This document shows, piece after piece, positions 1,705 through 29,757 of a stretch of DNA of 61,906 nucleotides. The position numbers were made by a program, and so were the translations under genes. How positions within the stretch are numbered: position 1 is the first letter of the stretch; each line of letters begins with the position of its first letter. The notes beneath the pieces are model-generated. The model saw only the letters and a program-made list of their open reading frames with translations, did not search any database and was not told the DNA's origin. Location: the IMG/VR virus record IMGVR_UViG_3300033994_001593, positions 1 to 61,906 of that record. One strand, written 5' to 3'. The DNA is from a virus.

Positions 1705-2169
1705 ATGACGTTTGAAGAGTGGAAGAGCGGCCGGACGAGCGATGTGAATCACGACGCGATCTTTGAGATTGGCGAGGCGCACCTTTGCGGTGACTTCGCC
1801 GCCGCCGAAGCGGTCGAAGTGTTCATCTACGATGACGCTGCCGTGTTCAAGTTGAGGGACGGCACCTACTACAACACCGCGGACGATGGACTCTCTCTCA
1901 CGCTGGAGGCTGCGGAGTGCGCGGCGTTCGCGGGGCTGGAGCGCGAGCGGGCGCGGAGGAGTCAGCCCAAGGCAAAGACCACCGACGCCTACACGGTCGG
2001 CAAGTACACGACCGAAGGGGGCGGCGTGACCGTGACGCTGCGGTTCAACGGCCACGGGGGCGTGTTGCTTCGCCACTTCTCAGGCAACCAGGGCGCAACC
2101 AAGGCAGAAGCGTATGCCGCCACGCTCCAGAGGGTGGCCGATGTTCTGAACGGCGCCAGCGAAGAGTGA
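1705..2169 (+). CDS. Hypothetical accessory protein, MTFEEW family
   Basis: First gene of the rightward operon (154 aa), start fixed by CAGGAGACATGAG before the ATG. It begins MTFEEW and carries a DGTYYNT segment around residue 52; the protein at 3164 begins the same way and has DGTYFTV, so the two are divergent paralogues within one operon. An acidic first half is followed by a C-terminal region (VTVTLRFNGHGGVLLRHF) that looks like beta strands. No known family recognised. Probably soluble and expressed early. Confidence 0.75.
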   Translation: MTFEEWKSGRTSDVNHDAIFEIGEAHLCGDFAAAEAVEVFIYDDAAVFKLRDGTYYNTADDGLSLTLEAAECAAFAGLERERARRSQPKAKTTDAYTVGKYTTEGGGVTVTLRFNGHGGVLLRHFSGNQGATKAEAYAATLQRVADVLNGASEE

Positions 2170-2240
2170 GATTGAGCGACCGCGGAATGGCCGCGGTCAG
2201 GATCGATACTACTAGACCTACCCAAAGGGAGAAGAAAGCA

Positions 2241-2885
2241 ATGACCACTGCAACGACAAGCGGCTGGAAGGTTCAAGAGGGATTCGGCCCGCTCACCGAT
2301 GACATCACGAAGTGCTGGGGGATGCGAAGCACAAAGCGCACGTTCACCTGCATGATCGAAGCCGAAGCGTACAGCGAGCAACTGTACGAGCGCCGCGTTC
2401 GACAGGTGATGAAGAGCGACCCCGACGATTGGCAATCCTACTGGACGCGCGTCATCCAGGTCGGGACGCCTACGCCCGAAGCGGTGATCTATTACGCGGT
2501 TTACGAGTCCGACAATGCGAAGGGATACGATGCGGATTACGAACCCTGCGAGTCGAAGGAGGAGGCCATTCGCGAGGCAACCGGCTACCTGAGTTTCGCG
2601 AGCGGCCGGAACGATGTCGTGTATGTGGTCGCCGTACCGGAGTCGATGTGCGTGACCGACAACGAGGAGTGGTCGCTCTGGGATTGCTTGGGTGAGATCG
2701 AAGCCGACCCCGCTTCGGAGTTCATCTACCTCCACCGCGGCCGCGAGCGACTGTCCGATATCCAAGACACCGACATCGTGGCCGACTTGCGGAGCCTGGC
2801 CGACGATGAAGATGACACGCTGGGGCTGCTGCTCAAGCGGGCGGCCGACGAGATTGAGCGGCTGCGTGGCACCACCAAGAAGTGA
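2241..2885 (+). CDS. Hypothetical acidic protein (214 aa)
   Basis: The frame is open from 1917, but the ATG at 2241 has AAGGGAGAAG about 8 bases upstream, as in its neighbours, so that start is used. The N-terminal half has scattered tyrosine and tryptophan (DDWQSYWTRVI), and the C-terminus is a helical acidic stretch ending ADEIERLRGTTKK. I do not recognise a family. Second gene of the accessory operon. Confidence 0.7.
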   Translation: MTTATTSGWKVQEGFGPLTDDITKCWGMRSTKRTFTCMIEAEAYSEQLYERRVRQVMKSDPDDWQSYWTRVIQVGTPTPEAVIYYAVYESDNAKGYDADYEPCESKEEAIREATGYLSFASGRNDVVYVVAVPESMCVTDNEEWSLWDCLGEIEADPASEFIYLHRGRERLSDIQDTDIVADLRSLADDEDDTLGLLLKRAADEIERLRGTTKK

Positions 2886-2904
2886 TGCTGGTGTGATCGA
2901 TAGA

Positions 2905-2926
2905 ACCAACCCGAAGGGAGACTGAC
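2905..2926 (+). repeat. Leader repeat, copy 1
   Basis: The 22-base sequence starting ACCAACCCGAAGGGAGACTG precedes the GTG at 2928 and recurs exactly at 3141-3162. It contains the Shine-Dalgarno AAGGGAG, so the repeat is a duplicated leader. Confidence 0.8.
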
Positions 2927-11288: not shown

Positions 11289-11584
11289 CACTCACCTCGC
11301 CAAGTGGTGGTGACTTCTCCAAGGATGGCCCAGAACAGAGCATCGTGATCTTCCTTCGCCGGCAGCGGGCAGTCGTGTCGCAGAACGTGGCAGTATTCCT
11401 CGAGCAGCGTGTCGAGCATCATGCTCTCACTCGCCGCTGTGATTCGGATTAACGCTCGGCCCTCACCGAGGATGCACAGGCCGTGAAGCCCCGGCTGTCG
11501 CTTGACAACCCTGACCACGATCGGCGTCCTGGCTGGGTAGTGGCGACGAAGCCACCTCAACATTTTGCGCAGACTCGAAGGCAT
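11288..11584 (-). CDS. Zincin-like small protein with altered motif
   Basis: 98 aa. The C-terminal half (MLDTLLEEYCHVLRHDCP, then EDHDALFWAILGEVT) resembles small phage metallopeptidase-like proteins whose core is LLHEWAH and a downstream HDxxWG. Here the first His of HExxH is replaced by Glu (EEYCH), so activity is doubtful. The first 40 residues overlap the nuclease gene by 122 bases; an ATG at 11566 is an alternative start. Confidence 0.5.
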   Translation of the reverse strand: MPSSLRKMLRWLRRHYPARTPIVVRVVKRQPGLHGLCILGEGRALIRITAASESMMLDTLLEEYCHVLRHDCPLPAKEDHDALFWAILGEVTTTWRGE

Positions 11585-11903
11585 GGCAGAGGAGGGGTAG
11601 GTCGGTGAGTCGGATCGTGATCAGCCACCCGTGTGGGCTGCGGCTGGTGCGATGCATCACGACCGGGGTCTTGCGCCCAGCCTGCTTCACTGCCAGCCCC
11701 ATTGCTCTTGGTAGGTTGAGCCGCTCGACCCACTTCACCTCCCAAAAAAGGCTAGGCGTCTGGTCTACAAGGATGTCCGGTGAGTCCGGATGCCAGCCTG
11801 AGAACTGCTGCGACCGCCGGCAGGCCCAGCCAAACAGATCTCGGAGAGTCTGGCAGGCGGCCAACTCTGCGCGCTTGCCTTTGGCTCGGCTATTCAGGGC
11901 CAC
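11463..11903 (-). CDS. Hjc-like PD-(D/E)XK nuclease
   Basis: 146 aa, GTG start within the overlap with the HNH gene. KGKRAELAACQTLRDLFG supplies the first acidic residue, SPDILVD the Asp and LFWEVKWVE the ExK of the nuclease core, in the order found in Holliday-junction resolvase (Hjc) and related small nucleases. It would fit branched-DNA resolution in the recombination module. The last 40 residues overlap the next gene and may be unimportant. Confidence 0.7.
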   Translation of the reverse strand: MALNSRAKGKRAELAACQTLRDLFGWACRRSQQFSGWHPDSPDILVDQTPSLFWEVKWVERLNLPRAMGLAVKQAGRKTPVVMHRTSRSPHGWLITIRLTDLPLLCHAFESAQNVEVASSPLPSQDADRGQGCQATAGASRPVHPR

Positions 11904-12319
11904 GGGTCACCCCCTCTCCTGGTTCGATCCTCCAAGAATTTCTTGGGGATGGGTTCCTTTTCGTAGGGCAAAGCCTTTCGTCGCTTGAGGGCGGCGAGTT
12001 TCTCGACATCGACATATCCATCTTCTTCTTCCTTGGCCGCCAAGATTGAACCTTTCGGCAGCTCCCCGTACCCCGGCAACCTGTCATGCACCGCGTGGTG
12101 GCACCGGCAGCAGAGCGAGATCCACGACTCCCCGTTCGGAAGATCCTTCCGACCAGGGCCAGCAACGATGTGATGCAGCTCAAGCCATCGACCCTTTCGT
12201 TCAGCCGGCCAATGGCAGACGGCACAACGACCATGCATCATCATGTAGTCGTTGGCCGTCAGGCCCTTGTCCGCAGCTTCGCCTTTGAGTTTCTTCAAAA
12301 CGAGATGCTCGTCATTCAT
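11894..12319 (-). CDS. HNH endonuclease
   Basis: 141 aa. CAVC (Cys32, Cys35), LELHHI (His49, His50), Asn62 and CCRCHHAVHD (residues 70-79) make a zinc-bound HNH domain. The C-terminus is a charged helix. HNH proteins in phages can be homing, packaging or junction nucleases; this one lies in the recombination module rather than next to the terminase. The ribosome site is weak, and the 15-bp repeated motif at 12338 lies just upstream. Confidence 0.85.
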   Translation of the reverse strand: MNDEHLVLKKLKGEAADKGLTANDYMMMHGRCAVCHWPAERKGRWLELHHIVAGPGRKDLPNGESWISLCCRCHHAVHDRLPGYGELPKGSILAAKEEEDGYVDVEKLAALKRRKALPYEKEPIPKKFLEDRTRRGGDPWP

Positions 12320-13082: not shown

Positions 13083-14663
13083 CTATCGTGAGCGTTGTTT
13101 CTGCAAATCTCTCCTTGCTACCTCTCTCCGTATTGCCTCGACATGAATGCGGTTCTTGCAGTTGGATTCGTTGACCACCCACCGGAGATATCCGGTATCG
13201 ACGGTGCGAATCTTCTGCCCTTTGAACTTGCCGAACAGCATGTGATTTTCTATGTACCAAGTGCGGCGTGGGTTCTCGGGCCGCTCCGCTTCGGCAAAGA
13301 CATCCCTTTCGTATATCGCGAACCGCCCCTGCGCTGTCAGCCGTTTTCTCTGCTCGACCTCGAGGGCGTGACGGGCGGCCTCCTCGCGGGCGATCGCAGC
13401 CCGCTCGGCTTCGATGACGGGATCGAGGGCGACGGCCTCCTTGCGGCCCTCGGTGGCCTTCTTGACCCGCTTCAGCAGCTCGCCCTCCAGCTCGGGGGCT
13501 AGGACATCCACGGCCGAGCGGAGGTCGCAGTGCCTCGAGGTGTCGGTAAAATCGAACACCTCGGTGAACGGCTTGGCCGACGCGGCGATCGCAGCTCGAC
13601 GCTCCTCGGCGGTGTGCAGGCCGTCGATCACACCAGGCAGGGTGCGGGTGCCGCGGCCGAACATCTGGATGTAGAGCGCCTTGCTCTTCGTCGGGCGGGC
13701 GATGAACAGCTTTGCCAGTGGCGGGAAATCCCAGCCCGTGGTCAAGCAGCCGACGTTCAAGATCACGTTGTTGTCGCCCTGCTCAAAGTCCCGCAGATGC
13801 TGGCGGCGCTCGAGCGGATCCATCCTTGAGTGGACGATCGAGGCGAAGATGCCCCATCGGGCCAGCACCTCGCGAAGCATTTCCGCATGCTTGATGCTTT
13901 GGCAGAAGACCACGCTCGGCTTGCCGTCATGGTGCTGCACGATCAGAGAAGCCACGGCCTGGACGTTCGACTCCGACCGAAGCAGGGCATCTACCTTGTC
14001 CTGGTCGAAGTCACCGAATCGCCCCTTGAATGCCGAGAGGTCGAAGTCCTCGAGCAGAACCGTCCAGAGCTTGGTCGGGTTCAGATAGCCGTCGCTCACC
14101 GCGGCCTGGTACGGGTAGTCAAAGGCCACGGGGCCGTACCACTTCGTGAGAGGATCTCCCGTCCCACGCTGCGGGCTGGCCGTCATCCCCACGATCTTCG
14201 TGCCTGCCTCGCGGAAGTAGCCCAGCATCTTGAGAGCGGCGGGCGTGTAGTTGAGGTGCGACTCATCGATGACCAGCAGCTTGGTCTTGCCAAGGAACTG
14301 CTCATATCGCTTGCGAGAGAGGAGGCTGGCGTAGCAGGCAGATGTCACCCGCTCACCGCTCTTCAGCGCCCCCTGCTCAATACCGCACGGGATCCCTCTC
14401 GATCTGAATCGGGCGGCCGTCTGCCCGACCAGATCGATAAAGGGGCCGCAGATGATCGCACCATCATGCGCGTCCATCGCATCGATGAGAGCGATCGCCA
14501 CCTCGGTCTTACCCGTCCCAGTAGCCTGGGTGATCAGACATGAATCGTGCGAACGAAGCATGTCCACCACCGCATCGACGGCCTGCCGCTGGTACGGGCG
14601 AAGGTGAAAGCCAGCCGTCTTGGCCGGCTCACCCTCCAACCGAAATAGCATGTTGTCATCCAT
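13083..14663 (-). CDS. Superfamily 2 DNA helicase
   Basis: 526 aa from the ATG at 14663, which has GGAG 9 bases upstream (another ATG at 14672 touches it). ATGTGKTE (Walker A, residues 47-54), DESH (motif II), MTASPQRG (III), VVFCQS (IV), TTGWDFP (V) and MFGRGTRT (VI) define an SF2 enzyme of the restriction-subunit/UvsW type. The C-terminal FGKFKGQKIRTVDTGYLRWV resembles the small domain seen at the end of exonuclease X-like and DUF3820 proteins. Likely remodels forks or recombination intermediates with ERF and the exonuclease. Confidence 0.9.
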   Translation of the reverse strand: MDDNMLFRLEGEPAKTAGFHLRPYQRQAVDAVVDMLRSHDSCLITQATGTGKTEVAIALIDAMDAHDGAIICGPFIDLVGQTAARFRSRGIPCGIEQGALKSGERVTSACYASLLSRKRYEQFLGKTKLLVIDESHLNYTPAALKMLGYFREAGTKIVGMTASPQRGTGDPLTKWYGPVAFDYPYQAAVSDGYLNPTKLWTVLLEDFDLSAFKGRFGDFDQDKVDALLRSESNVQAVASLIVQHHDGKPSVVFCQSIKHAEMLREVLARWGIFASIVHSRMDPLERRQHLRDFEQGDNNVILNVGCLTTGWDFPPLAKLFIARPTKSKALYIQMFGRGTRTLPGVIDGLHTAEERRAAIAASAKPFTEVFDFTDTSRHCDLRSAVDVLAPELEGELLKRVKKATEGRKEAVALDPVIEAERAAIAREEAARHALEVEQRKRLTAQGRFAIYERDVFAEAERPENPRRTWYIENHMLFGKFKGQKIRTVDTGYLRWVVNESNCKNRIHVEAIRREVARRDLQKQRSR

Positions 14664-14668
14664 GACGA

Positions 14669-14920
14669 TCATCTCCAGTGGTCGGCCCTACTCCCTACCC
14701 ACCGGGACTTCTCCGTCTCCTCGCTCCAACTCGACCGCAGCCTCTGCGTTGCTGCTGCTATCTCGTCGGGGCTTGGATCGTCGAGTTCGTTTCCGAGCAG
14801 GCGATGCTCGAAGAACAGGCCCAGGAGCGTCTGGTGGCTCATCCCGTGGCGCTTCGCCACGATCCCCACCTTCGTCTCCCGGCACTCTTGGAACAGCCTC
14901 TGCACCTCCTGTGCTTCCAT
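14669..14920 (-). CDS. Helix-turn-helix-like small protein (83 aa)
   Basis: ATG at 14920 has GGAGGGA upstream. ETKVGIVAKRHGMSHQTLLG has the spacing of a helix-turn-helix. The C-terminus is tryptophan-rich and polar. It overlaps the preceding gene by more than 230 bases in another frame; this frame looks the better of the two in that stretch. Confidence 0.6.
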   Translation of the reverse strand: MEAQEVQRLFQECRETKVGIVAKRHGMSHQTLLGLFFEHRLLGNELDDPSPDEIAAATQRLRSSWSEETEKSRWVGSRADHWR

Positions 14921-15161
14921 CTGCCAATCCCTCCATGAAGAAAGCGGACATCCTTTCCGCGAACATCCCACGCAGGATGTCGTGTTCTGCGAGCAACCGA
15001 CGAGCGTCTGCCTTGAGCGAAAGCAGGGCCGTCATCACCAGCTCGAACTGCTCTGGGTCATGCATCACGAACTGGTCGGCCGACGAGGCGATCTTGTAGG
15101 CCGCGTCACCAGCGATGAGCATCCTTTGCTTCAACGCCAAGAGTTCTTGTGGGGCGATCAA
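14688..15161 (-). CDS. Hypothetical protein, helical N-terminus (157 aa)
   Basis: A TTG start at 15161 overlaps the ERF stop (TTGA) and has GGGAGG 6 bases upstream. Residues 1-75 are a convincing helical domain (LALKQRMLIAGDAAYKIAS, TALLSLKADARRLLAEHD). The remaining 80 residues are charged, low-complexity and coincide with the next gene, so they may reflect a lost stop codon. It may assist ERF. Confidence 0.6.
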   Translation of the reverse strand: MIAPQELLALKQRMLIAGDAAYKIASSADQFVMHDPEQFELVMTALLSLKADARRLLAEHDILRGMFAERMSAFFMEGLADGSTGGAEAVPRVPGDEGGDRGEAPRDEPPDAPGPVLRASPARKRTRRSKPRRDSSSNAEAAVELERGDGEVPVGRE

Positions 15162-15850
15162 GCAGCACCTCCCGTCTTGGCGGGCTTCGCACCGGCCTTC
15201 TCCACCGCCGCCGTGATCTCTGCGATCCGCTTCTCTGCCAGCTCGACCAGCTCGGGAAGGTCGGCGGGGTTCAGCTCCCCGGCCTCCACCTTCTCACGAA
15301 CCTTCTCAAGCTTGGCCTCGACGGTCTTCACGTTGGCCGCCGCGGTGATGGCATCCTTCGCCATCCGCTTCATGTCGGCCCAGGCCACGGCCTTGGTGTT
15401 GTCCACCGCAGGCTCGGCCTCCATCGCCGGCCCATCGGTATCAGTCTCCGCGGCCAGCCCAAGCAGGGCTTCGATGGCGGCTCGACGCATCAGCGTCATC
15501 GCAGCCTTCCGCTTGTGGATGCTCTGGTACTGGGGGATCGGCAGCGTCGAGGTGACGAACTCCCCAGACCCATGCTCCAGCACCGCCACGGCGTAGACGC
15601 CCGTCTCGTCATAGCCGTAATCACAGTGCAGCCAGAGGCCGTTCTGCGACAGGGCCTCCTTGGTTGCCGTGTTGATTGCCGTGAGGCTGGCGTAGCGGTA
15701 CTTGCGGCCATCCTCATCGACGCCGGTGCTGTCCAGCTTTACCGTCTGGAACTCGGCCGTGGCTTTCGCCATAGCCTTCGTGATCTCGCCGGTTGTTGGA
15801 CTCTTCTCGCGATAGACGCACATATGCGTCGGCTTCTGGATTACTCCCAT
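15158..15850 (-). CDS. erf: ERF-family single-strand annealing protein
   Basis: 230 aa from the ATG at 15850, which shares bases with the exonuclease stop (TAATG). KYRYASLTAINTATKEALSQ, GLWLHCDY and the later RRAAIEALLGLAAETDTDG follow the ERF core, in which a YAxL segment, a GL.. segment and a final LLGI..DDDG block are conserved. ERF proteins anneal single strands produced by a 5'-3' exonuclease. The C-terminal third is a helical, lysine/glutamate-rich tail. Directly downstream of its expected exonuclease partner. Confidence 0.85.
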   Translation of the reverse strand: MGVIQKPTHMCVYREKSPTTGEITKAMAKATAEFQTVKLDSTGVDEDGRKYRYASLTAINTATKEALSQNGLWLHCDYGYDETGVYAVAVLEHGSGEFVTSTLPIPQYQSIHKRKAAMTLMRRAAIEALLGLAAETDTDGPAMEAEPAVDNTKAVAWADMKRMAKDAITAAANVKTVEAKLEKVREKVEAGELNPADLPELVELAEKRIAEITAAVEKAGAKPAKTGGAA

Positions 15851-16797
15851 TACCAATCACTCCCTTCTTCGAGCATGTAACGCGGACAATACAGCTCATG
15901 GATTTGCCCGTAGTCCTCGGGCGTCCAACAGTCCCACTCCTTGCGGCGTTGGATTTCGTTAAGCAGGGCGAGGCAGCGGCGCCGGCCCCTGGCGACGATA
16001 ACGTCGGGCAGTCGTGCCACATGGCAGTGGTACGGCTCGACCGTCGAGCAGATGATGAACACCATCGAGTGCGGTTCCCACCCAGCGGCAACCGCAGCCT
16101 CGCCGTAGAACGCGGCCTGGATGTCATAGCGCCACTTGCGGACGCTTGAGTGAAACGTCCACCGCGGATCTACATCGGAGGTGGTCTTGAAGTCATAGAT
16201 GAACTTCTCGGTCGCACCGTCGCACCGAACGCGACAGTCGTGGCCGTGCCACTTCCACGCGATGTTGAACTCGCGATCAACCGTGTCATCAAGGATGCGA
16301 CGAGCGGCGCCGTTGTTCAGAATCTGCCGCGTCTGATTCCACAATTTGTTGTGGTCAGAAGGCGAGATAGCCATCACGCCTGGAGGCAGAGTCTTTATGT
16401 ACTCCTTCGCCTCTTTGCCAACCTGTCCGGTGACCGTCAGCTTCTCGACGGGGATCGGCTTGACGTTTTGCCAGAACAGGCCGTCGCCAAGTTCACCCCA
16501 TTGGTGGAGCAGCGTCCCGAATGAGAGGGCTTCGCTACTTTTGGGGGGGGCTATCCCCTTAACGTACCTGCGGTAGAATGCCGCTGGAGAGAGCGCAAGC
16601 TCTTTGAGTTGGGAGGACGAGATTCCTGGTCGAGCGTGGTATTCCTCGTTCGAGCAGTGATCGATGACGCAATCAGAGTATTCAATAGCAGCGGCCGGAC
16701 TTGAACCGGCGACACCCGGCTTATGAAGCCGGGTGTCGATCTCGACTGCTATCGCTTCCTCTGTTGCGTCAGGCTGGGAAGCCCTGACGCTAGGCAT
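15850..16797 (-). CDS. PD-(D/E)XK exonuclease (RecE/DUF3799-like)
   Basis: 315 aa. EEYHARPGISSSQLKELALS, ALSFGTLLHQWGE (with His98), RCDG (Asp193), YDFKTT (Asp202, Lys204) and WRYDIQAAFYGEA (the QxxxY element) mark the single-strand-producing exonuclease family that pairs with annealing proteins. ATG at 16797 follows AAGGAGCGGATA, a perfect ribosome site. The conserved domain begins only near residue 47; residues 21-37 are encoded by a tRNA-like sequence (candidate attP) beside the integrase. Stop overlaps the ERF start as TAATG. Confidence 0.85.
   Translation of the reverse strand: MPSVRASQPDATEEAIAVEIDTRLHKPGVAGSSPAAAIEYSDCVIDHCSNEEYHARPGISSSQLKELALSPAAFYRRYVKGIAPPKSSEALSFGTLLHQWGELGDGLFWQNVKPIPVEKLTVTGQVGKEAKEYIKTLPPGVMAISPSDHNKLWNQTRQILNNGAARRILDDTVDREFNIAWKWHGHDCRVRCDGATEKFIYDFKTTSDVDPRWTFHSSVRKWRYDIQAAFYGEAAVAAGWEPHSMVFIICSTVEPYHCHVARLPDVIVARGRRRCLALLNEIQRRKEWDCWTPEDYGQIHELYCPRYMLEEGSDW
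16686..16737 (-). other. attP: Candidate attP core: 3' half of a tRNA with CAT anticodon
   Basis: Read on the minus strand, a 10-bp perfect hairpin (16737-16728 with 16720-16711) has the loop TTCATAA, i.e. a CAT anticodon. It is followed by a perfect T-arm, GCCGG TTCAAGT CCGGC (16710-16694), and CGCTGCTA (16693-16686), which fits an acceptor strand plus discriminator. No proper D-arm or matching 5' acceptor precedes it, so it is not a working tRNA. Tyrosine integrases commonly target such tRNA 3' halves, and the integrase gene starts 209 bases away. It lies inside the exonuclease reading frame. Confidence 0.7.
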
Positions 16798-16945
16798 TAT
16801 CCGCTCCTTACTGGGGTGGTTCTACTAGTGAGGGGGCGAACCGCTCGCCGTTATCCCCTCAAGGTGCCGGTGCTTTCCTGTGTGACCGACAGGATTGTCA
16901 GCCACGCTACCTAGTTGCATGGACGCCCACGCGGGAGTCGAAGAA
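16798..16945. other. Divergent gap between exonuclease and integrase
   Basis: Holds the exonuclease ribosome site (AAGGAG, minus strand) and the integrase ribosome site (GGGAG near 16932). A short inverted repeat GGCGAACCGCTCGCC is present around 16835-16850. I find no confident -10/-35 pair in either direction. Arm-type integrase sites could lie here. Confidence 0.4.
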
Positions 16946-17821
16946 ATGATCGCAACCAGAACGGCACAATCTTTTACCAACGAGATGACCCTCCTTGATT
17001 TACTAGACCGCTATATGGCGGCCGTCGAAGTCAGTCCGCGGTATCGAGAATCCCTTCTCCGGACGGTTCGACGGGCCAAAAATAGCGGCCTCAAAGAAAC
17101 CTGTCAACTAACGACAGAAGAAGTGAACAAGTTTCTCGCGGGCCTGAGTGTCGGCCAGACAACAAGGCACAATATCCGCCGGGAACTACTGACACTTTGG
17201 CGGTTCGCCCACGACCGGGGGTTCGTTGAGGAGTACCCGACCCGCATCCGGAAGATACGGGCGACGTTCGCCACCCCGGTGACATGGGAGCTGACGCGGC
17301 TCTCCCAAATCATTGAGGCGGCAGAGGGCGACGAGACGCCCATCAGCTCAAGGATTCGCCTTGGGCGGTGCGATGTGATCCCAGCCTGGGCTGGCTTGGC
17401 CTATGACTCTGGGATGAGATTCAGCGACATTCACAACCTGACGAAACGCAGCTTCCGAAATGACTGCGTTGCTGTCACAGCATCGAAGACCGGCAAGCCG
17501 CTGGTGCGTGTGCTTTCGGAGCGGACGCAGCATGACGTTGCCAAGCTCTTCATGCATAGTCCTGACGGGACGCTCTTCAAGTGGCTGCTGCCCAGGCGGC
17601 GAGCCTTCCACATGTGGCGGGCGTTCTTGGACGAGCATGGGTTCGGTGGATCCACGAAGTGGTTCAGACGAGCTGCCGCCACCGCGATCGAGCAGCTCAA
17701 GCCTGGAGCCGCCACCGACTTCCTTCAGCACTCGCATCCATCGTTAGTGAGGCGCCATTACCTTGACGCCACCCAGGCTGCGATCCCGATGTCGCCGCCC
17801 CCGATCCGGAAGCCGAGGTGA
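16946..17821 (+). CDS. int: Tyrosine recombinase (integrase)
   Basis: 291 aa from the ATG at 16946, which has GGGAG 9 bases upstream; an ATG at 16919 and a TTG at 16895 are in frame. An N-terminal SAM-like core-binding domain (residues 12-105) precedes the catalytic domain: Arg158 in AYDSGMRFSDIHNL, Lys181 in TASKTGK, Lys238/Arg241 in KWFRR (the HxxR box with the known Lys variant), His in LQHSHPS and Tyr272 in VRRHYLD. It opposes the genes on both sides and lies next to the tRNA-like candidate attP. Ends one base before the stop of the convergent gene. Confidence 0.92.
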   Translation: MIATRTAQSFTNEMTLLDLLDRYMAAVEVSPRYRESLLRTVRRAKNSGLKETCQLTTEEVNKFLAGLSVGQTTRHNIRRELLTLWRFAHDRGFVEEYPTRIRKIRATFATPVTWELTRLSQIIEAAEGDETPISSRIRLGRCDVIPAWAGLAYDSGMRFSDIHNLTKRSFRNDCVAVTASKTGKPLVRVLSERTQHDVAKLFMHSPDGTLFKWLLPRRRAFHMWRAFLDEHGFGGSTKWFRRAAATAIEQLKPGAATDFLQHSHPSLVRRHYLDATQAAIPMSPPPIRKPR

Positions 17822-27404: not shown

Positions 27405-27784
27405 AGGTCGGCGGCGAGTGCCGTTACATGCGTGGCCTGCGCGATGGATGTGGTCACGCGAACAGACCATGACGAGGATGGAAGGATCAGATTGTCATAG
27501 GTGCGGGTGACGCGAGTAGTCGCGACCGTATTTGACGAGGTGGCAGCGGAGATCGTCACCTCGTCAAACAGGAATGTGCTGGTGCCGTCATGCAGAAAGA
27601 CGCGCACGATTGCGGCAACAGAGGTGGCGGCGCACTTCACGACCAATTCCGCCACGCGAGTTCCGGCGGCAACTCCGGTGATGACGGTTCCGAAGTTGGT
27701 CGGGGCCGTGAGGCTTGTGTCCTGAGTGCTGATTGAAACGCTGCCGATACGCGGCGTGACTGCAAACGAAGGGGAGGTAGCCAT
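27401..27784 (-). CDS. Fibre-cassette protein (127 aa)
   Basis: All-beta protein rich in Thr, Ser and Val (SVSISTQDTSLTAPTNFGTV, VVKCAATSVAAIVRVFLHDG). It resembles a single beta domain of a fibre or a fibre cap. TAATG overlap with the long fibre, GTGA overlap with the adhesin. Confidence 0.6.
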   Translation of the reverse strand: MATSPSFAVTPRIGSVSISTQDTSLTAPTNFGTVITGVAAGTRVAELVVKCAATSVAAIVRVFLHDGTSTFLFDEVTISAATSSNTVATTRVTRTYDNLILPSSSWSVRVTTSIAQATHVTALAADL

Positions 27785-29757
27785 TAGCGGAAGGTACTCC
27801 AGAGATAGAGGTTGACGGCGGCGCGTGCGTTGTCCGAAAGGCGCGAATCAGAGAGTGTGCCAGAGGTCAGATCGCTGGCGTTGGTGCTTCCGCTGGTGAC
27901 GGTTTTCCAAGTTTGATCGCCAGCGAGGAACGTGGTGGAGGTGGCCGAGCCGCTGCCGAGCCGGGCCGTGGCGATTACACCGCTCTGAATCGCACTTGCG
28001 TCATGCGTATGAGAGAGAGGCGTGCGAGCATCCGACAGGCGGGCATCATTGCCGATGCAGACGCTACTGGCATCGCTGCCAGTTGGAATTCGGGAAATGT
28101 CTAACTCCCCCGAAACAATGTCCATCGCGTTATGCGCATGTCCGGAGGCGGCTTTCTCTGACAGTTGCACCTCCAAGCCCGTCACTTCGCTGATCATGTG
28201 ACCGTGGACGGCGGCGGCGTATGAGCCGCTTGGCTGCTTGGAATTCAGCGCGGCCTGCAAGCCAGTGGTGTCGGCAATCACATGCTGATGCGAGGTCGCG
28301 GCCTTGGCATCGAGCAACGATTGCACCGCAGACACGGCGCGGGTGTTCGTGAAATAGAGATTGGTGCTGCCTTCGGCAATCGCGTCGGTCGAGCCGGGGG
28401 AGGCGACGATCTCGACATACTGCGTTCCTGCCCACCGATAAATCTTGCCGTTGTTGATCGTGAGGTACAGTTTCCCCTCTTCACCGCTTGTGGGCAGAAG
28501 GGATGCGTTGTCCACTTCGATCACATCATCAACGTAGGACGGCAGTTGCGTGGCTGGCACCTTGCCGCCGACGAGCGTGGCGTAATCACCAGCGGTCTGC
28601 TTGTTGTCGAGGGCCGCTTGCAAGCCAATGATCGCGGAGATGCCGTGATTGTGGACTGACTGTGCGTAGGAACCGGAGGGCTGCTTGGAATCTAAAGCCG
28701 CCTGCAACCCAGTGGTGTCGGCAATCACATGGGAATGGACGGTCGCAGCGTAGGAACCGGCGACTTGCTTCCCGTCCAACGCTGCCTGCAAGCCATCGAC
28801 GGCACTGATTATGTGGGTGTGTACCGCATTAGCGTATGAGCCAGTGGGCTGCTTGCCGTCGAGTGCGGTCTGTAGCCCGTTGACCGTCGAGATCGCTTGC
28901 TGCCCAGTGTGCGTTGCGCGATCCCGCAGTTGAGCGTCGGTCGCGTTGGCCGTCGCCCCGCTCGCGATGCCGTCGAGTTTCGTCTTGTCGGAAGACGCAC
29001 CCCACCATGCCTCGATTGCGGATCGCACCACCGCATAGGCCAGCCACCGCGAGGCGGTTGGATCGTAAGTGATCTGGATCGCGCTGTTGACCGGGATCAC
29101 AACATCGCCCCCGGTGGGCGAGATCACGCGATTGGGTGCCGCCGACAGGGTGGATTGGTGTGCGATGGTGATGGGGAACGAGCCGACGTTATGCAGCGTG
29201 ACCGACGAGCCTGCCGATGCGACGAAGCCGGTGATCGTGCGCGGCGCATCCGACGAGAGGCGGGCGTTGTTCGCGCCCACCGACAGAGCGTAGTTGTTCT
29301 GGTCGGAAGTGATCGTGGTCGGTGAGTGGAAGGCCGCAGCGGAACCCGCGAGGTACACACCGAAGAATGCGTCAGTCGCCGCCGGGGCCGCGGCAAACGT
29401 GATCTGCGAGCCACTCACCGTGTAGGCCACTTCCGGCTGTTGCGTCACGCCGTTGAGCATGACGAGCAGCGAGGCTGCGGTGGCGGGCGTGACCGAAGTT
29501 GTGCCGATGACGAGATCAAACGTCGTGGTCGAGCCATTGAACGTGAGCGAGTTGAGAGTTCGGTTGAGGGCCGACGCGCCGCCAGAGCCGCCCACGCCAC
29601 CCACGATGTACGGCAGCGAGTTGTATGCAGTGGTGCCGTCACCAACCTTCAACTTGTTCGTGTCCGTTTCAAATACGATCTGCCCCGCCAACGGGACTTC
29701 GTTGGCTGCGGTCAGGGCGGCAAGGGTGCCGCGTCGTTGTTGGACAATGGGGGGCAT
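27784..29757 (-). CDS. Long tail fibre with phage-tail repeats
   Basis: 657 aa. The N-terminal QQRRGTLAALTAANEVPLAG through KLKVGDGTTAYNSLPYI is the attachment domain found on many fibres. Residues about 290-400 and 480-580 hold repeats of LQAALDGKQPTGSYANAVHT type (phage-tail-repeat-like, HTH or HSH every 32 residues or so), which trimerise into a shaft. The C-terminus is short. TAATG overlaps with both neighbours. It is the main shaft component of the cassette. Confidence 0.85.
   Translation of the reverse strand: MPPIVQQRRGTLAALTAANEVPLAGQIVFETDTNKLKVGDGTTAYNSLPYIVGGVGGSGGASALNRTLNSLTFNGSTTTFDLVIGTTSVTPATAASLLVMLNGVTQQPEVAYTVSGSQITFAAAPAATDAFFGVYLAGSAAAFHSPTTITSDQNNYALSVGANNARLSSDAPRTITGFVASAGSSVTLHNVGSFPITIAHQSTLSAAPNRVISPTGGDVVIPVNSAIQITYDPTASRWLAYAVVRSAIEAWWGASSDKTKLDGIASGATANATDAQLRDRATHTGQQAISTVNGLQTALDGKQPTGSYANAVHTHIISAVDGLQAALDGKQVAGSYAATVHSHVIADTTGLQAALDSKQPSGSYAQSVHNHGISAIIGLQAALDNKQTAGDYATLVGGKVPATQLPSYVDDVIEVDNASLLPTSGEEGKLYLTINNGKIYRWAGTQYVEIVASPGSTDAIAEGSTNLYFTNTRAVSAVQSLLDAKAATSHQHVIADTTGLQAALNSKQPSGSYAAAVHGHMISEVTGLEVQLSEKAASGHAHNAMDIVSGELDISRIPTGSDASSVCIGNDARLSDARTPLSHTHDASAIQSGVIATARLGSGSATSTTFLAGDQTWKTVTSGSTNASDLTSGTLSDSRLSDNARAAVNLYLWSTFR

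Follow-up and report, generated by a model that had tools for sequence, protein, structure and literature searches.

A tRNA-targeting attP within the start of a RecE-like exonuclease gene of planctomycete phages and its possible role as an integration-dependent switch

Known systems in which integration alters a phage gene

Integration-dependent gene control is known mainly for repressors that become active on integration, and the position of attP can also make the expression of other genes differ between integrated and free DNA. In phage lambda int/sib, integration separates int from an mRNA 3' element, without breaking any coding sequence. Mycobacteriophage BPs and its relatives possess an integration-dependent immunity in which attP lies in the repressor gene (PMC4557955; for Mycobacterium abscessus prophages, PMC9934374); attP is placed near the repressor 3' end, and integration drops a C-terminal degradation tag, which leaves the prophage form active. 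Inovirus XacF1 has attP inside ORF12 (PMC5666396), a possible regulator; when the 5' part of ORF12 is deleted, the integrated state becomes unstable. This filamentous phage has no phage integrase and relies on host XerC/D acting at dif. A search of literature that included few subscription papers turned up no account of an attP within an exonuclease gene.

The locus studied here belongs to a stretch of viral DNA of 61,906 nucleotides (positions 1 to 61,906 of IMG/VR record IMGVR_UViG_3300033994_001593), referred to as the window. It resembles the BPs type in that the attP core lies in phage coding sequence beside the integrase and may coincide in part with a host tRNA gene, and in that integration would alter the product and excision restore it. 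However, the interrupted gene is a lytic, RecE-like exonuclease and not a repressor, attP sits at its 5' end, and the start is lost, so the prophage form should be off; instead of a shorter active protein minus a C-terminal tag, the prophage form of a relative has no start codon. The likeness to mycobacteriophage immunity drawn in the first-pass annotation of this DNA, therefore, holds for attP in coding sequence beside an integrase and fails for the gene and the direction of the effect. The locus would work like integration-dependent immunity and is yet not a member, because gene, gene end and direction of effect differ: the control known from repressors is reversed, and a potentially host-damaging nuclease loses its start codon. 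With XacF1 ORF12 it shares an ORF that is split in two on integration and re-formed on excision, and with lambda an attP position that would set an expression difference, although, unlike in lambda, the coding sequence is broken in the planctomycete phages. The exonuclease and its ERF neighbour are otherwise an ordinary phage recombination pair of RecE/exonuclease VIII and ERF (PHROG 412, 3h4r), from which they differ by a tRNA-coded N-terminal tail and by the attP inside the gene.

The attP core and the genes around it

On the minus strand, the core reads CCGGCTTCATAAGCCGGGTGTCGCCGGTTCAAGTCCGGCCGCTGCTA from 16732 to 16686 and spans a tRNA-Met from the anticodon stem-loop (CAT) through the variable loop and T-arm to the 3' acceptor strand, its codons being read in frame with the RecE-like exonuclease (Table 1). 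The first-pass annotation had recognised an anticodon arm (CAT), T-arm and acceptor end there, a description borne out by ARAGORN, which reported a degenerate tRNA-Met (CAT) at 16686-16759(-), and by the host tRNA match; its placement within exonuclease codons 21-37 is refined slightly, to codons 22-38, and the core reaches 5 bp further on the 5' side than the 42-mer given there. Since the D-arm is absent, as expected of a 3'-half tRNA, and the Rfam tRNA score (27.5 bits) lies under the gathering score of 29, the element is the 3' part of a tRNA and not a tRNA gene.

Table 1. Features of the window around the attP core and along the leftward gene run
Feature	Position	Strand	Remarks
RusA-like Holliday junction resolvase	11463..11903	-	phrog_244 5.6e-13
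HNH endonuclease-like ORF	11894..12319	-	
DEAD/ResIII helicase, same leftward run	13083..14672	-	Pfam and PHROG profile matches
ERF-type single-strand annealing protein	15158..15850	-	Pfam ERF 3.8e-9; phrog_2324 2.1e-19
RecE/exonuclease VIII-like PD-(D/E)XK nuclease ORF, 315 aa	15850..16797	-	attP in 5' end; residues 1-39 predicted disordered
Inverted-repeat arm TGACGCAA, exonuclease-body side of core	16665..16672	.	candidate integrase/excisionase arm site
attP core	16686..16732	-	47 bp exact match to 3' part of planctomycete tRNA-Met(CAT); doubles as exonuclease codons 22-38
Exonuclease start stub, codons 1-20	16738..16797	-	expected on integrase side after integration; equivalent junction in another element, L017
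Inverted-repeat arm TTGCGTCA, start-stub side of core	16764..16771	.	partner of TGACGCAA
Exonuclease ribosome binding site AAGGAG	16804..16809	-	duplex energy -8.8 kcal/mol
Tyrosine integrase	16946..17821	+	divergent from exonuclease; ORF open from TTG 16895

The 42-mer is single-copy in the record of the window and was found exactly in 10 other IMG/VR contigs, each time (10/10) at the 5' end of an exonuclease frame; a broadened T-stem pattern search of IMG/VR added no new contigs. It was also present exactly in 21 contigs of planctomycete metagenome-assembled genomes (MAGs), and the search for bacterial tRNA genes ending in it, which had been proposed as a check, was answered by 20 of these, where it forms the 3' end of a complete tRNA-Met composed of GGCAGCGTAGCTCAGTTGGTTAGAGCACCGGC followed by the 42-mer; the one remaining contig is an integration junction. 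Within the 72-genome host family, the core was detected with at most 2 mismatches in 45 genomes. Phage and host tRNA are identical over 47 bp in the window and over 48-51 bp in related phages, with an unrelated tRNA 5' half, and by sequence comparison such an identity goes far beyond chance. Moreover, host tRNA 3' variants (..CTGCTA, ..CCGCTA, GGTTCGAG; TTCGAGT) turn up again in phage attP cores. Together with the adjoining tyrosine recombinase and with junctions that rebuild the tRNA, the latter seen in relatives only (a rebuilt tRNA followed by phage DNA in L080, the other end in L017), this identity characterises the element, judged on its sequence, as a tRNA-targeting tyrosine-integrase attP aimed at planctomycete tRNA-Met.

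The gene that contains attP is, by profile and predicted fold, a lytic RecE-like exonuclease of the RecE/exonuclease VIII group and a predicted nuclease, matching Pfam DUF3799 (2.6e-15) and phrog_412 (4.5e-49), with E. coli RecE (3h4r, E 6e-11) as the top Foldseek match of its AlphaFold2 model. As had been suggested, the nuclease domain sets in past the tRNA-like part, at residue 59-60 by Pfam and residue 35 by PHROG, and the modelled exonuclease fold starts at residue 40, residues 1-39 having a pLDDT <50. The ribosome site claimed for the exonuclease start at 16797 is likewise present, as AAGGAG before the ATG. The neighbouring gene was also correctly taken for a tyrosine integrase: it matches phrog_1 (3.9e-15) and Pfam Phage_integrase (2.9e-4, under its gathering score), and its R, K and Y residues are invariant in the alignment with relatives.

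The TGACGCAA/TTGCGTCA repeat, found in L013/L083/L084 as well, is clear in the clade of the window, and core-flanking inverted repeats of all members taken together are barely above shuffles. Scans of the attP region for sigma-70 promoters and terminators found nothing. Another inverted repeat, GTCAGG...CCTGAC, covers the first exonuclease codons in the integrase-core interval (window 16766-16790; also L083, L084 and L085) and is a possible operator or integrase site. A stem-loop at the exonuclease YH codons right after attP (window 16625-16690; equivalents in L085, L091, L112, L118 and others) could be an arm site, an operator or a transcription barrier; it was left out as evidence because it is partly present in relatives without attP too.

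Downstream, an operon running exonuclease-ERF-helicase-lysis-sigma had been proposed, of which the first three genes were recovered by profile and the "lysis" and "sigma" assignments were not confirmed. The ATG of the ERF gene overlaps the stop of the exonuclease gene (TAATG), and the two are, therefore, probably translated in a coupled manner. A non-exhaustive search identified no repressor in the window. Elsewhere, window 27784-29757 (-) encodes a tail protein with an Mtd N-terminal domain and phage tail repeats.

Relatives and integrated junctions

Profile searches widened the set to about 20 distinct phages, with exonuclease identity down to about 30%. Every distinct phage with the core in the exonuclease gene has the same order, namely divergent integrase (in contigs that extend that far), exonuclease ribosome binding site and start, tRNA 3' end and exonuclease domain, and the reading frame is open throughout attP in about 20 phages. 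Two tRNAs (Met and Gly) and different frames are in use: most members read tRNA-Met as RLHKPGVAGSSPAAA, a peptide invariant in many of them, in L110, L112 and L126 a different frame gives FISRVSPVQVRPPL, a tRNA-Gly core (LPKLDV..) is found in L103, L108 and L109, and tRNA-Gly is used in yet another frame in L100. On the exonuclease tree the tRNA/frame state changed at least nine times, and the ORF is open nonetheless. Start codons upstream of attP have good ribosome binding sites, the best values averaging -8.1 kcal/mol against -4.7 kcal/mol for randomly chosen positions (P 5e-8, uncorrected for relatedness). In the stretch from the T-arm to the first conserved motif of the domain, ATG and GTG are absent from all phages whose exonuclease contains the core, and TTG occurs in three. 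In relatives with no integrase nearby (L088, L098 and L099), the exonuclease starts right before the domain, its upstream neighbour in L088 being a 927-aa ORF. The changes of frame and tRNA, the strong upstream ribosome sites with no later ATG or GTG, and these integrase-less controls suggest that translation through attP is kept and not merely inherited. In the frame-2 phages, a GTG inside the tRNA core, which has no ribosome binding site, could restart translation weakly. A scarcity of start codons over the 100 codons that follow attP was set aside as evidence of selection, as it differs only weakly from the controls, which show part of it.

The layout is not universal, because L121 and L087 have an integrase adjoining the exonuclease and no recognisable tRNA core; the same arrangement is seen in L097, and L087 carries a long N-terminal extension and perhaps a non-tRNA attP. 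In L003/L004/L008, the start codons of integrase and exonuclease, some 93-144 nt away from the core, overlap each other on opposite strands. Cultured phages gave matches of about 25-29% identity for the exonuclease and no match for the integrase.

Natural variants also bear on which gene is targeted. The exonucleases of L100, L101, L102 and L103 are 88-99% identical, and L101 and L102 carry an additional ORF between attP and the exonuclease (about 2150-2917 (+)) that has no Pfam match and is HNH-like by eye. The attP stub MDNSSCAEAAVSHGPQLPK occurs in both L100 and L101; in L101/L102, the stub is fused in frame to the additional ORF, whose stop overlaps a separate ATG of the exonuclease. Whichever gene comes first in the operon thus carries the attP leader.

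One integrated junction of each kind was found, in different MAGs and from two different elements, both relatives of the window phage; no integrated copy of the window phage turned up in the planctomycete genomes examined. In L080 (contig C271 of G417), 6.9 kb of host chromosome, encoding MutS and a molybdopterin oxidoreductase and matching the uninterrupted loci L033 and L024 at 87-89% identity, is followed by an intact tRNA-Met and then by an exonuclease body 46% identical to that of the window, with ERF and further genes co-linear with the window operon. The L080 exonuclease frame opens just past the TAG of the tRNA itself, its first 162 codons include no ATG, GTG or TTG, and a 16-bp hairpin lies directly behind the tRNA (-38 kcal/mol, z -4.5). 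The opposite junction, L017 (G002), consists of integrase, short stub, core and a host 3' flank that is, beside the tRNA, 93-94% identical to L030/L020/L022; this element is known only as far as its integrases, two related genes in tandem at L017 1600-3666. For both junctions, and especially L080, the approximately 49-bp core common to attP and attB could mislead an assembler into a false join. Further lysogens were sought in sets of planctomycete genomes, about 400 per set, and among the 72 genomes of the host family, and G417 was the single addition to G002; other exonucleases in those genomes are distant and have neither a same-family integrase beside them nor a fused tRNA core.

The proposed check for prophages with matching attL and attR thus yielded both kinds of junction in planctomycete MAGs, from relatives only. 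The claimed separation of the operon from its start codon and upstream region is upheld by both junction kinds, with the correction that the target is the first gene of the operon (L101/L102) and not the exonuclease as such. It had also been reasoned that an exonuclease frame and promoter identical in the excised and integrated forms would speak against a switch; in the relative examined, the two forms are not the same.

Other elements use the same tRNA-Met as a hotspot (L037, G006:C45; L192, G214:C1; L164; L170); a toxin-antitoxin-like cassette and an island of 9 kb are bordered there by incomplete copies of the tRNA. Among L016-L036, MAGs with Candidatus Kuenenia or Planctomicrobium in their titles have the tRNA and highly identical chromosomal loci in common with Planctomycetaceae MAGs of one family, and these titles look unreliable.

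A proposed switch and its alternatives

The reading preferred here, with a probability of roughly three in four, is that attP lies in frame at the start of the first gene of a lytic recombination operon, such that integration turns the exonuclease off and excision restores it. In free phage DNA, the promoter region, ribosome binding site and ATG would sit between integrase and attP, and ribosomes would cross the tRNA-like DNA, making a disordered protein tail, into the nuclease and then, by the stop-start overlap, into ERF. Crossover within the common tRNA segment would leave the start stub with the integrase at one prophage end; at the opposite end, the host tRNA gene would be rebuilt with the nuclease body attached to it, and the exonuclease could not be made there because its frame opens past the TAG of the tRNA without a start codon. 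In relatives, integration strips the exonuclease of promoter region, ribosome binding site and start codon, and excision should rebuild the gene. We infer from the sequences that the prophage yields no exonuclease and, via the overlap, perhaps no ERF or further products; exonuclease silence in lysogens, downstream coupling and a selected purpose are, likewise, deductions. That purpose might be a lock under which a nuclease that degrades DNA, perhaps together with its operon, stays silent until the phage has excised.

Whether this is a widespread lock on lytic operons in planctomycete phages, with attP as a translated leader, the operon translatable only from non-integrated DNA and silence there imposed by tRNA integration without a repressor, is an evenly balanced proposition. 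The recurrence of the arrangement in diverse phages of a little-studied phylum, with two tRNAs and changing frames, makes it testable as a general solution, and the natural variants (no integrase, an extra ORF, or frame 2 with a GTG in the tRNA) are ready comparisons.

The main rival, clearly less probable than the switch yet a serious contender, is that the same structure arose as a by-product of compactness with no selected switch: a compact first ORF runs through attP, and loss of its start is harmless since a repressor already silences the operon. Phage genomes are compact, as the overlapping integrase and exonuclease starts of L003/L004/L008 illustrate, and in L101/L102 the stub was taken over by another ORF, as expected if position alone matters. 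On the other hand, a start after attP, of the kind used by the attP-less relatives, would be simple, but across at least nine tRNA/frame changes no core-bearing exonuclease has an ATG or GTG there, and the non-exhaustive search of the window identified no repressor. The sequence data, therefore, favour a selected switch without proving one.

The opposite effect, in which integration would switch the exonuclease operon on through the host tRNA-Met promoter and an unusual start codon, is improbable; the L080 nuclease body does lie directly behind the host tRNA gene, and the frame-2 phages do have a GTG inside the tRNA, but translation from the nearest in-frame ATG, GTG or TTG of L080 would lose the N-terminal half of the nuclease, and the tRNA is immediately followed by the stable hairpin. 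That the element is a phage tRNA gene, intact or in decay, or a hairpin formed by chance, with no tie to integration, would fit the ARAGORN report; this reading was ruled out, with next to no probability left to it, by the absent D-arm, the sub-threshold Rfam score, the identity to the host tRNA confined to the 3' 47-51 bp beside an unrelated 5' half, the adjoining integrase in relatives and the integrated junctions. Slightly less improbable than that, though still very unlikely, is a tRNA-coded N-terminal peptide kept for the function of the protein; the invariance of RLHKPGVAGSSPAAA in many members fits it, but others read the same tRNA as FISRVSPVQVRPPL or a different tRNA as LPKLDVEGSSPFAR, the residues concerned are predicted to be disordered, and some relatives have an exonuclease without the peptide.
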